DNA from: an uncultured Clostridium sp.
GTDB taxonomy: Bacteria > Bacillota > Clostridia > TANB77 > CAG-465
Reading direction: 5' to 3'
NCBI GenBank assembly: GCA_948470565.1
Contig: CAOKPF010000007.1
Location: 1 to 39,555 of the forward strand
Length of the DNA stretch: 39,555 bases
The first letter of the stretch is position 1, and the number at the start of each line of letters is the position of its first letter. This document shows, piece after piece, positions 16,793-39,276 of the stretch. The position numbers and the translations under genes were made by a program. The notes under the pieces were generated by a model. The model was not told the origin of the DNA. It saw only the letters and a list, made by a program, of their open reading frames with translations, and searched no databases.

Positions 16793-16879
16793 TAATTTTA
16801 TATTTATAAGTGATTTGAAATTTTTTTGCGTTCTATTCTAAGAAAAAATAAGCTTTTATTATTTGTGAGAATTTTTTTG

Positions 16880-16908
16880 TTGAAATAAATATTTGCATGT
16901 GATATAAT
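16880..16908 (+). promoter_or_regulatory. shared glycan-locus promoter, copy 1
   Basis: TTGAAA (16880-16885) and TATAAT (16903-16908), 17-bp spacer with a TGTGA extension. The whole 29-bp block including the spacer is nearly identical to 18979-19007 and 19745-19773, differing only at one C/T position. Confidence 0.85.
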
Positions 16909-16955
16909 CTTTTTAAACAAGAAAAATTAGTTATACAATAAGGGGAAGATGTGTC

Positions 16956-18857
16956 ATGAATGTAAAATCAAAAATATACAAATTATTTAATATGATTTTT
17001 TCAATTGTATTTGCAGTTATATTAATTGGTACAATATTTGATAATCAAAGTCAAATAAAAGCTGTAAGTGCATTACCACTAATCTTGTGTGCTTTAATAA
17101 TAGGAGTAGTAGTAATTTTAATGTATACATTATGTATGTATATAGGAAAAAAGAAATTAAGTGATAATACTTATTACTGTGGTAAAATTAGTATAAAAAA
17201 AGAAATAATTATATTTTTAATATTAATATCTTGTATAATAGGTTTGGAAATTATTTGTGGAATGAAGCTTAGAGTTAGTGGTGAGAGATTTGATTTAATA
17301 AATATAATTAGTATGGCAGATAATATAGCTAATAATCGTAATGTACCAGTACAAACAGAAGAATATTATACTGTATATCCTGATACTGATTTTATAATGT
17401 ACATAATGATATTTGTATATAAAATATTTTTAAAATTAAATCTTGATAAATATAATGCATTAGTTCCTGGAATAGTTTTTAATATAATTATGGTTACAGC
17501 ATCAATTATTACATTTTACTTTATTATAAGGAAATTGTACAATAATACAAAAGCACTTGTAATGCTTGGTGGAATTTTTTTAATTACCCCCATATTTCTA
17601 TATATACCAATATTTTATACTGATACTTTATCTATGTTTTTTGTTGTAATGATATACTATCTTTATTTACTTTTTAGAGAAAATCCTAATAATATAAAAA
17701 AAGTAATATATTTTATATTATTAAATATAGTTGCTATAATAGGGATTAAAATAAAGTCTACTGTCGCTATAATGGTAATAGCAATGTATATAGATTTAAT
17801 AATTAACAGCACAAGTATACTTTTTTGTGTTTTTGCAATTACATATTCCATAGTAACATTACTTTTAGGTAATATGTTAATAAATAATTCAATGAATAAT
17901 AGTGGATATTTTAATCTCTTCGGGTTTAATTCCCCGACGCTTGCGTCGTAACAAACTAGGCAAACATTACGAAGTTTTGTTTGCTGGGGCGAATACCCCG
18001 CTCTCGAAGAGAGGCAAACATCTTTTCTAGATGTTTGAGGGCTTGCCCCGGGGAAGTTTATTGTAGATATATCAAAGAGATTTTTACCATATACTCACTG
18101 GATTATGATGGGATTAAAAGAAAATATGCAATATAATTTACCAGTGTCAAAGGATAATGTTGAAGAGTATGGATATGATATTAGTAATCCATTTATTAAA
18201 AGTGTATATGGTGTATGGAATTATGAAGATTTTTACTATACAACTGATACTTCAGATTTTATGATACCAGGTTCTTCATTTCTGTCATTTTATAATTTAG
18301 TACACACAGATCTTACATATGAACAAATGAATGATAGATGTAAGAAAAGAATATCTAAAAGATTGAAAGAAAAAGGAGTTATGGGAACTATAAAATTTGA
18401 ATACAAAAAGCTTATTCAAACTTGGGGGGATGGTACATATTATGTTCCAACTAAACTTAGTAGATACCCAATCGAAAATGATAATTCATTAGCAAAATTT
18501 GTTCGTTTAAATGGAATATACTTTGATAAATATAATAACTTTTCTCATGGAGTGCATGTAATAATGCTAAGCTTTATATTTATATCTACTTTAATAAATA
18601 TAAAGAGTAAAAAGAATTATGATTTTAATGAAAGTAAATATAGTAATTACAAAATGAATATATTAAGAGTAGCTATATTTGGATTAATTATATTACTTGA
18701 ATTATGGGAAACTAGGAGTAGATATTTAGTAAATTATATATTAGTATTACTAATACTTTGTATACCAGCGTTAGACTTTCTTAGTATTAAATTAATAAAT
18801 TTCTTTAAGAATATTAGTAAAAAAACTAAATCAGTAATATATTATATAGATTGCTAA
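16956..18857 (+). pseudogene. GT-C (PMT/ArnT-like) membrane glycosyltransferase, interrupted
   Basis: Two pieces in the same frame belong to one polytopic membrane protein. The first (331 residues to a TAA at 17949-17951) has about eight hydrophobic helices, with IISMADNIANN and a YPDTDFIMYIMIFVYK segment of the kind seen in lipid-linked-sugar glycosyltransferases. The second, downstream of the insert, begins FIVDISKRFLPYTHWIMMGL, where the THWIMMGL stretch is characteristic of this class, and ends with two or three more helices. A GC-rich hairpin element (17914-18056) with two in-frame stops separates them. Removing 147 bp (insert plus one TTTA) gives a single frame of 584 residues with the junction SGYFIVDI. 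The gene is thus inactivated, or at most yields an N-terminal fragment. Confidence 0.82.
17914..18056 (+). mobile_element. GC-rich hairpin (MITE-like) insertion
   Basis: About 143 bp, far richer in G and C than anything around it, flanked by TTTA at 17910-17913 and 18057-18060. It is a chain of short perfect hairpins: CGACGC/GCGTCG (17935-17948), GCAAAC/GTTTGC (17960-17984), GGGG/CCCC (17986-17999), CTCTC/GAGAG (18001-18013), CAAACATCT/AGATGTTTG (18015-18037) and GGGC/GCCC (18039-18048). An outer pair TTCCCCG (17930-17936) with CGGGGAA (18049-18055) could close the structure. It has no coding capacity, so it would need a transposase supplied elsewhere. I cannot name its family. Confidence 0.72.
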
Positions 18858-18939: not shown

Positions 18940-18977
18940 ACAAGTTTTTATACTGATAATAAACTTGTAATTTTATT
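18940..18977 (+). terminator. terminator after the interrupted glycosyltransferase
   Basis: ACAAGTTT (18940-18947) pairs with AAACTTGT (18961-18968), followed by AATTTTATT. It lies immediately before copy 2 of the shared promoter. Confidence 0.65.
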
Positions 18978-18978
18978 A

Positions 18979-19007
18979 TTGAAATAAATATTTGTATGTG
19001 ATATAAT
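18979..19007 (+). promoter_or_regulatory. shared glycan-locus promoter, copy 2
   Basis: TTGAAA (18979-18984), TATAAT (19002-19007), 17-bp spacer identical to copy 3. Confidence 0.85.
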
Positions 19008-19064
19008 TAGTAACAAAGATTATTATGTATTTGTTACTAATCTTTTTGTTAATTGGAGTTTTTG

Positions 19065-19677: not shown

Positions 19678-19744
19678 AACACTTTAGATTAGAAAATTTA
19701 AAATATTTGAAATCCTTTTATATGTAGAAAAAGTGCGATAATTG

Positions 19745-19773
19745 TTGAAATAAATATTTGTATGTGATATAAT
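19745..19773 (+). promoter_or_regulatory. shared glycan-locus promoter, copy 3
   Basis: TTGAAA (19745-19750), TATAAT (19768-19773), 17-bp spacer identical to copy 2. It serves the three-gene operon that starts at 19910, with an unusually long leader of about 130 nt. Confidence 0.85.
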
Positions 19774-19909
19774 CTCTTTAAATAATTATTATAAAAACAA
19801 ATAAAAACAAGTAATTTCTTGGTAATTTATACTTTATTTATGCAAATAATATTAATATAAATAGTAAATAAAGTAGTGATTTTTATAAAAAATAAAAGGG
19901 GAGATAATT

Positions 19910-36441: not shown

Positions 36442-37536
36442 TTATTCTTCATAGTAGCTTGCAATTAATGGATTTTGAAAAATATCTATAAAATTAAACT
36501 CAAAAAATATTTTAGATAATATTGTATTAGTATCACAATAGTATAAACATATGTTATTATCTATAAATCTAATATCCACAGCTTTTTCAGTACCAACAAA
36601 TTTTGAATAATCTAACTTTGAGAAATTTTCAAAATCTAATGTAAAATAACAACAATGTTTTTTTCTATTCATTAAACCTATAACTCCATTGGGAAATACA
36701 AAACTACACACATAATCAATATTTATCCTAGCTTGTGATTTTATTTTTTTTCCAATACAATTAGTATACTTTATCTTACCAGACCTTAATAAAAGCTTAG
36801 TATTACTTACAAATGCATTAATTCCAACTTTTTCTAATTTAGTTAATCCACTACTTATAGGATTTAAATATATACACTTTTTCCTAAATCGCAATAATAT
36901 ATTATATTTTTGTATTACCTCTATATTTCTACAATTACTATCCATATAAATCTCGCATTCTCTTTCATCACATTTATTCTTCTTAATATGTAATTTTATT
37001 GGTGAAAAATCCAAATTAAAAAAATCAAGTTCCATATAGATTGGTATAGATATTGACTTGTCATAATAATCATTTACCAAAAAAATTTCATTATCACTTA
37101 TTTTTTTTATTACGTAAGAATTACTGTAATTAAAATATATATTATCTTTAAACAAATCAGTTAATTTTATTATTGAGTATATATTCTCATTTAATATTAA
37201 AATTAGTATATCATCTTTTTGGTCTACTATGCATATAATACCATTTGACGTACAATAAAAATGACAATCTAAATTTGATTGTAAAAAAACCTTTTTAACT
37301 AATGTGTCTGTAATATCTGTACATTTATTGTCTAAATGAAAAAATGCTACATTTTCGAAATTTTTATTAACAGCTATATATTTTATATAAGCATTAATAG
37401 CACACTTTTTCCTACGATCAATACATTTTCTTCCATAAAATATTCCTCCATATCCCTTTAATTCTTCATATTCTTCTACATTTAATCTAGTAATTTCAGG
37501 TAAGTCTTTCAAAGACTTTACAATCATATTATTCAT
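36442..37536 (-). CDS. unknown protein, paralogue array member 2
   Basis: A 364-residue unknown protein. Two related halves are visible: the first with CAINAYIKYIAV, FHLDN, VKKVFLQSNL and NGIICIVDQKDDI; the second with NAFVSNTKLLLRSGKIKYTN, then NGVIGLMNRKKHCCYFTLDF and ENFSKLD, and a conserved end KIFFEFNFIDIFQNPL. The Asp-box-like YFTLDFENF occurs once near the C-terminus. I start it at the ATG giving MNNMIVKSL, which matches MNNKITL of the next paralogue and follows AAAGGA; the frame is open 22 codons further but runs into the upstream terminator. Cysteine and lysine rich, no signal peptide seen. Confidence 0.7.
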   Translation of the reverse strand: MNNMIVKSLKDLPEITRLNVEEYEELKGYGGIFYGRKCIDRRKKCAINAYIKYIAVNKNFENVAFFHLDNKCTDITDTLVKKVFLQSNLDCHFYCTSNGIICIVDQKDDILILILNENIYSIIKLTDLFKDNIYFNYSNSYVIKKISDNEIFLVNDYYDKSISIPIYMELDFFNLDFSPIKLHIKKNKCDERECEIYMDSNCRNIEVIQKYNILLRFRKKCIYLNPISSGLTKLEKVGINAFVSNTKLLLRSGKIKYTNCIGKKIKSQARINIDYVCSFVFPNGVIGLMNRKKHCCYFTLDFENFSKLDYSKFVGTEKAVDIRFIDNNICLYYCDTNTILSKIFFEFNFIDIFQNPLIASYYEE

Positions 37537-37686: not shown

Positions 37687-38856
37687 TTATATATTTTGCT
37701 CATAAGTTACACTTAATGAATTGTTAATTACATTGGAAAAATTGAAATTAAAGTAAAGAGCAGTATATATTTTTTCATCTGTTACTTCTGATTTTTTAGC
37801 AATACACAATACGTCATTAACATAATCCAGTTTCTCTATGCCACTAAAATCCTCATTTAATTTTGAAAAATATTCGCAATCTATAGTAAAATATAACTTA
37901 TTACCATTTATTACTATTATAATAATACCATTTGATAATACATATGAATTGCATTTTTTTATTATCATATTAAATTTTGATTTTGAATACCTTACTCTAT
38001 TATAACTATCTATATATATGATTTTACCATTATACTGTAATATATATATTTTCTTTATTATAGAATTAATACATACTTGGTCTGAAATATTTGTAGAATT
38101 ATTTTTAGTAATTATATAAGCATTTTTAAAAAATGCAAATCTACTTATTATATCATCATATATACATAAATTTTCGTTTACAATAAATTTATCATTTTTA
38201 TATATTTCATAACTTTTTTCTTCACTTACAATGCTTCTGTAATGTAACTTTATACAATTACCATTCTCGTTATAAAAGTCAAATTCCATATATATAGGAA
38301 TAGAGTCATTTTTATCTTCATATCCCATTTCTTGAGAATAATTTTGCCACTTATATTCTATTAAGTCATTGCTAATAGAGGTAATGTATATAGAACTAGT
38401 TATATCTCTGTCATGTTCCTTTAAAAAGGTGTCAAAATTAACAATAGAATATATTTTATCATTTAGCATAAACAAAATATTACTTCTATCAAACACAACG
38501 CAAAGAATGCCATTTTCTGTAGTATATAATTTTAAATTGCACTTTAAAAAAATTTTTTTTAGAATATTATCATTAACTTTGATATAGTTATCAGATAAAT
38601 CTCCAATATATATATTATCTTTATGCGTAATTAGAATATGCCGTATATATATATTTATTGCGTTATTTTTCCTTTCATCTATACCATCTCTTCTAATTAC
38701 AGATTTAAAATATGAATCTCTCTTTTTTTTCTCAAAAAGCTTAAAGCAACGAAATTTTCTCCTTATATTCTTTAATATTTCTTTTTCTATTGATGTAGTA
38801 CATATTCCTACTTCTCTTAAATTTGGAGTTGATGTTAATGTTATTTTATTATTCAT
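37687..38856 (-). CDS. unknown protein, paralogue array member 3
   Basis: A 389-residue paralogue of the preceding protein with the same two-half layout. First half: ERKNNAINIYIRHILI, IYIGDLSDN, LKKIFLKCNL, NGILCVVFDRSNILFM. Second half: KNAYIITKNNS, KKIYILQYNGKIIYIDSYNR, SNGIIIIVINGNKLYFTIDC, EYFSKLN and LYFNFNFSNVINNSL. YFTIDCEYF replaces YFTLDFENF. The regular strand-turn pattern suggests a beta-propeller or beta-sandwich. There is no secretion signal and no enzymatic motif. A GGTAGGTAGG stretch lies ahead of the ATG. Confidence 0.7.
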   Translation of the reverse strand: MNNKITLTSTPNLREVGICTTSIEKEILKNIRRKFRCFKLFEKKKRDSYFKSVIRRDGIDERKNNAINIYIRHILITHKDNIYIGDLSDNYIKVNDNILKKIFLKCNLKLYTTENGILCVVFDRSNILFMLNDKIYSIVNFDTFLKEHDRDITSSIYITSISNDLIEYKWQNYSQEMGYEDKNDSIPIYMEFDFYNENGNCIKLHYRSIVSEEKSYEIYKNDKFIVNENLCIYDDIISRFAFFKNAYIITKNNSTNISDQVCINSIIKKIYILQYNGKIIYIDSYNRVRYSKSKFNMIIKKCNSYVLSNGIIIIVINGNKLYFTIDCEYFSKLNEDFSGIEKLDYVNDVLCIAKKSEVTDEKIYTALYFNFNFSNVINNSLSVTYEQNI

Positions 38857-38907: not shown

Positions 38908-39276
38908 TTAATCATTTATTCTTACATCAATCGTACTTTTATTAGCTCTTGAAAAATTAAATTCAAATTCAAGCTTTAATTTATTCTTTTTTTCACTATC
39001 AGAACTTATGTATATTTCTTCATCTTCATATATAAAATCATTGAATTCTTTTACTTCTATTTTAGTAAAATATTCAAAATCTAATGTAAAATAAATATGT
39101 GTTTTCTCAAGTACATCTGGGGTTTGAAAAACTAATGCAATTACTCCATTTGGTAACACGCAAACTGATGGCATATTAATTTCTGGAATATCGGATTGAG
39201 AACAATAATAATTATTGTTACAATCTAAATAACAAAAATGTAAATTTCCTACTTCCTTTTTACATATATACACCAT
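38908..39276 (-). CDS. paralogue array member 4, probably 5'-truncated
   Basis: At least 122 residues with the C-terminal core of the family: NGVIALVFQTPDV, IYFTLDFEYFTKIEV and LKLEFEFNFSRANKS. Reading upstream of the ATG at 39276 in the same frame gives TSLNAFIKM, which continues the alignment with the paralogues (CAINAYIKY, NAINIYIRH), but no start codon or good ribosome binding site is found before a stop at about 39335. The gene is therefore either a decayed, 5'-truncated copy or starts at an unusual codon. No terminator separates it clearly from member 3. Confidence 0.55.
   Translation of the reverse strand: MVYICKKEVGNLHFCYLDCNNNYYCSQSDIPEINMPSVCVLPNGVIALVFQTPDVLEKTHIYFTLDFEYFTKIEVKEFNDFIYEDEEIYISSDSEKKNKLKLEFEFNFSRANKSTIDVRIND

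Follow-up and report, generated by a model that had tools for sequence, protein, structure and literature searches.

How did a glycosyltransferase gene come to be split by a segment with a base composition foreign to its surroundings, what is this segment, and could it leave the gene again? The locus lies in a window of 39,555 nucleotides (the whole stretch of DNA analysed here), which is contig 7 of a 2.1 Mb draft assembly comprising 126 contigs with a completeness of 96.6%. The segment has a GC content of 48%, versus 25% in the window, and contains six perfect hairpins located between 17935 and 18048, as the first-pass annotation had described. Moreover, its folding is more stable than that of all 200 dinucleotide shuffles, both as DNA (z −3.7) and as RNA (z −3.4). 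We are highly confident that the insert is a non-autonomous element of the IS200/IS605 family, namely a PATE, moved in trans by a Y1 HUH transposase (TnpA) without target duplication. The features of the locus are as follows, with a slash marking the insertion point here and below.

16956..17915 (+), glycosyltransferase gene, 5' portion, up to and including the TTTAAT target (codons F-N)
17910..17915 (+), target hexamer TTTAAT, adjoining the left end and unduplicated, in all copies and at uninterrupted sites
17916..18062 (+), mobile element of 147 bp, defined by 15 full-length copies with the same boundaries and by a filled/empty difference of 147 bp
17935..17948 (+), left-end hairpin CGACGC-TT-GCGTCG, common to resident IS200-type elements
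17960..17984 (+), internal hairpin, GCAAACA paired with TGTTTGC
17986..17999 (+), hairpin GGGG-CGAATA-CCCC, an alternative to the right-end closing stem
17996..18053 (+), compound right-end structure, in which a closing stem of CCCCG (17996-18000) and CGGGG (18049-18053) surrounds three hairpins
18001..18013 (+), hairpin CTCTC-GAA-GAGAG, first within the closing stem
18015..18037 (+), hairpin CAAACATCT-TTTCT-AGATGTTTG, second within the closing stem
18039..18048 (+), apical hairpin GGGC-TT-GCCC, whose GCTTGC tip precedes the right cut by 16 nt, likewise in the resident IS
18057..18062 (+), hexamer TTTATT at the right end of the element, with which the resident IS copies also terminate
18063..18857 (+), glycosyltransferase gene, 3' portion, placed by the paralogue alignment FN/VDVSKK

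Boundaries, copies and uninterrupted sites

A search of the same genome revealed 15 full-length copies of the element, together with several partial or older remnants. Over 153 bp, twelve of the full-length copies have the same sequence, another two show a single-base difference and the remaining one departs from it at seven bases. All 15 carry TTTAAT directly 5' of the left end and finish with GTTTATT at the right end, beyond which the sequences diverge from copy to copy. Since the copies share these ends and the uninterrupted sites read TTTAAT followed by the flank, the insert corresponds to 17916-18062 and nothing is duplicated. The element begins with CTCTTC and ends with TTTATT, which are not inverted repeats of each other. 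The copies and empty sites that the first-pass annotation had proposed to look for do exist, the latter in the same genome rather than in other strains, whereas the 4-bp TTTA duplication that it had read at this locus, and expected at others, is found in none of the 15 copies. The presence of TTTA on both sides is an accident, because the TTTAAT target and the TTTATT terminus begin with the same four bases; the annotated length of 147 bp was right by a coincidence of register, and its boundaries were displaced.

Two uninterrupted sites document the insertion at nucleotide level. On contig 12, an interrupted gene is accompanied by an element-free tandem duplicate 2.1 kb away; the joined flanks match the latter without gaps, both gene copies differ in length by exactly 147 bp, and the alignment runs through AATTTTAAT/ACTAAA. 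This region (C12:22124-25200, L084) is in its own right a recent tandem gene duplication, identical at 704 of 706 positions over the compared stretch, with one copy bearing the element. On contig 40, a paralogue of the window gene can be aligned without gaps across GGATATTTTAAT/GTAGAT (that is, TTTAAT/GTAGAT) with 82% DNA identity, so that the empty state of the window gene is deduced from a paralogue rather than from the corresponding locus of a different strain. Furthermore, other interrupted genes, which encode a PspC-domain protein, an integrase, a member of an ATPase-like family and a protein with an uninterrupted homologue in genome G020, align with close homologues that are uninterrupted and show no indel at the junction.

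The 5' part of the glycosyltransferase gene shows a weak match to PMT_2 (E 1.7e-5, just under the Pfam cut-off), and the paralogue L085 aligns across the insertion site with 49% amino acid identity, the paralogue protein reading SGYFN/VDVSK. The insert brings two in-frame stops into the gene, while the joined flanks form a single open frame of 597 codons from stop to stop. Thus, the proposal that excision restores the frame is sustained, although the repaired junction reads SGYFN/VDISK, with residue N where the annotated junction SGYF-IVDISK had placed I. Read-through, also suggested there, appears unlikely for the window copy, because each sense-strand frame of the element holds at least one stop. 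Ten of the 15 copies interrupt open frames, seven in sense and three in antisense orientation (L009, L010 and L012), which explains the broken look of about ten genes in this genome, each interrupted at a predictable place. This genic share, about two thirds, is close to that of TTTAAT sites, 64% of which fall within open frames of at least 100 codons and, therefore, no avoidance of genes is visible.

Outside this genome the element was absent from the 27 other members of the genus that were searched, and one further genome of the family (G031) contains a left-end remnant. In G031, which belongs to another genus, the left end (L129, C21:6614-6663) closely precedes an unrelated open frame and is not followed by any right end that could be found; it is a remnant or a possible case of promoter donation. 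An origin from a phage or plasmid was considered and rejected, as the phage search gave no match, viral contigs contained no exact left-end match, and plasmids contributed a single short left-end match, in a Ca. Megaera plasmid and close to a tnpA.

Relationship to IS200/IS605-type elements and strand bias

Three resident insertion sequences of about 582 bp (L017, L018 and L019 on contigs C3, C28 and C43, respectively) share the left 49 bp of the element with 94-96% identity, and their open frame matches the Y1 transposase family (Y1_Tnp, PF01797; E 1.5e-23). They have in common with the element the TTTAAT target, the TTTATT terminus and GCTTGC-tipped hairpins equally distant from the cuts, but they carry a frameshifted tnpA and their right-end hairpin is simple, whereas that of the element is compound. 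Because of this difference, the resident IS need not be its direct parents. To judge from its right-end architecture, the parent may have been another IS, one whose right end is compound and which is absent from this assembly. Two IS200-type elements in Lachnospiraceae/Clostridiaceae MAGs (L048 and L053) resemble the element in the TTTAAT target, a related left hairpin, and a compound right end with a closing stem and the GCTTGC tip, and differ from it in their intact TnpA of 154 amino acids, their length of 694 bp and their terminus TTGATT. The plan of the compound right end recurs in L048 with different stem sequences, and the last right-end hairpin is GTGCTTGCAC in these IS versus GGGCTTGCCC in the element, a paired change affecting both sides. 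TTTAAT directly precedes the left end in these two IS, as well as in the three resident IS and in a fourth related IS. A simple base-pairing rule for guide-directed cleavage, judged by eye, was inconsistent across the relatives and is not claimed.

Orientation provides a further line of evidence. In all 20 cases considered (15 full-length copies, one partial copy, the three resident IS and the related IS), the strand reading TTTAAT is the local G-rich strand, while the G-rich strand holds 45% of the TTTAAT sites on the same contigs, which gives a probability of 1.2e-7 for 20 of 20. Three old remnants follow the same rule, as do the three gene-antisense copies, and the IS on C43 follows the G-rich strand even though the surrounding coding bias is opposed. 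The G-rich strand is taken as the leading-strand sequence. With GC skew serving as a proxy for replication direction, the orientation thus appears tied to the lagging-strand template in 20 of 20 cases, as expected for single-strand transposition on that template. Such a bias is predicted by IS608-type transposition (PMC6006769).

These features match the definition of PATEs, which lack terminal inverted repeats, possess near-terminal palindromes, generate no duplication and are too short to encode a transposase (PMC3119063). Consequently, the element is a well-documented further member of a type already known, described also in Halanaerobium (PMC7290912). The PATEs of Haloquadratum walsbyi are likewise short, non-coding and homogeneous among copies; they have IS605-related palindromes near both ends, lack terminal inverted repeats and leave the target unduplicated (PMC3119063). 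They belong to another domain of life and have another sequence, whereas the present set is a homogeneous group of 147 bp whose right end is a compound of several hairpins and whose target is the hexamer TTTAAT. IS608 and ISDra2 also insert 3' of a short, invariant target, which is not duplicated, and display subterminal hairpins and a bias towards the lagging-strand template (PMC6006769), but, unlike the element, they encode TnpA (and TnpB) and use tetra- or pentanucleotide targets. The first-pass annotation was correct in proposing a non-coding mobile element with other copies and an enzyme supplied elsewhere, and the part of its reading that fails is the MITE with a target duplication. The value of this case resides in a well-resolved bacterial PATE with many identical copies, an empty/filled pair in the same genome and a complete strand bias.

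According to the mechanism described for the IS200/IS605 family (PMC6006769), a Y1 HUH TnpA supplied in trans would recognize the subterminal hairpins near both ends (17935-17948 on the left and 18039-18048 on the right) on one DNA strand, when this strand becomes single-stranded on the lagging-strand template. The 147 nt would then be excised as a single-stranded circle and joined 3' of another TTTAAT, leaving the target unduplicated. The window copy has interrupted the glycosyltransferase gene through its stop codons, and its precise loss would restore the gene, given an active TnpA.

Transposase supply and present activity

An intact Y1 transposase in the same cell is needed for present activity, although not for the membership of a non-autonomous element in the family, and none was found in the 126-contig draft assembly, where all six Y1_Tnp matches are disrupted or truncated. 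In four IS copies tnpA is frameshifted, with an additional stop in one of them; the remaining two matches are interrupted by a stop or cut by a contig end. A common one-base frameshift precedes the presumed catalytic tyrosine in the tnpA genes of all three resident IS, that of C43 being further decayed, and the related IS on C52 has a tnpA frameshift of its own. No TnpB (PF07282) match was detected in the genome, and the TnpA N-terminus had no close match (E 1e-30) in the other 384 genomes of the order.

The most plausible scenario is a recent spread of the element by means of an active TnpA, which either was lost afterwards or lies in the unassembled part of the genome. This echoes an open puzzle in Haloquadratum walsbyi, where recent PATE insertions are found although the IS200-type transposases of one strain are all pseudogenes (PMC3119063). 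The switching of the gene that the first-pass annotation envisaged fits the precise excision known for the family and is possible in principle, yet it probably does not operate now, because all Y1 transposases in the assembly are broken, by frameshifts or otherwise, and no TnpB was found. A less favoured view, to which we assign a small but appreciable probability, is that the element is still moving without a conventional intact transposase. The frameshift in the resident tnpA would then be a programmed +1 event, or TnpA would be provided by incoming mobile DNA, and the interrupted genes would switch reversibly during replication.

Other readings of the insert and further repeats in the window

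A quite different view would place the solution at the RNA level, where the insert would be spliced out as an IStron-like intron or skipped by translational bypass, leaving the host genes functional. Its length of exactly 49 codons and stable RNA fold are in line with this idea, as is the genic location of about two thirds of the copies, although this proportion is about the same as that of TTTAAT sites. However, the Rfam search of the window matched no family and no group I intron core was found, 147 nt being small for such an intron. Moreover, three of the ten copies within genes lie antisense, so that the transcript would carry the complement of the structure, and orientation tracks the G-rich strand even against the local coding bias, as in the IS copy on C43. 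We consider splicing or bypass very improbable. Equally improbable is a guide-RNA element working with TnpB: omega-RNAs sit at the right end of IS605-type elements and the right end of this element is highly structured, but the genome contains no cognate TnpB and the two intact relatives examined, L048 and L053, encode tnpA only. Finally, a MITE derived from an element with a DDE transposase, bounded by terminal inverted repeats and a TTTA duplication as the flanks of the window copy had intimated, has a negligible probability, since it is refuted by the empty/filled pair on contig 12, where TTTAAT is kept and nothing is duplicated, and is at odds with the differing hexamers at both sides of every copy, the absence of inverted repeats, the ends shared with Y1-transposase IS and a strand bias not expected of DDE elements.

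The preferred reading as a PATE concerns the insert, and the window contains two other sets of repeats. Three similar stretches, TTGAAATAAATATTTG[C/T]ATGTGATATAAT, occur at 16876-16927, 18975-19026 and 19741-19792 in a cluster of glycosyltransferase and membrane-protein genes, each upstream of an open frame, and are perhaps a shared promoter. At 36611-36649, 37856-37894 and 39056-39094, repeats of 39 nt are spaced about 1.2 kb apart; three consecutive open frames on the minus strand contain one repeat each, which suggests a tandem gene family.
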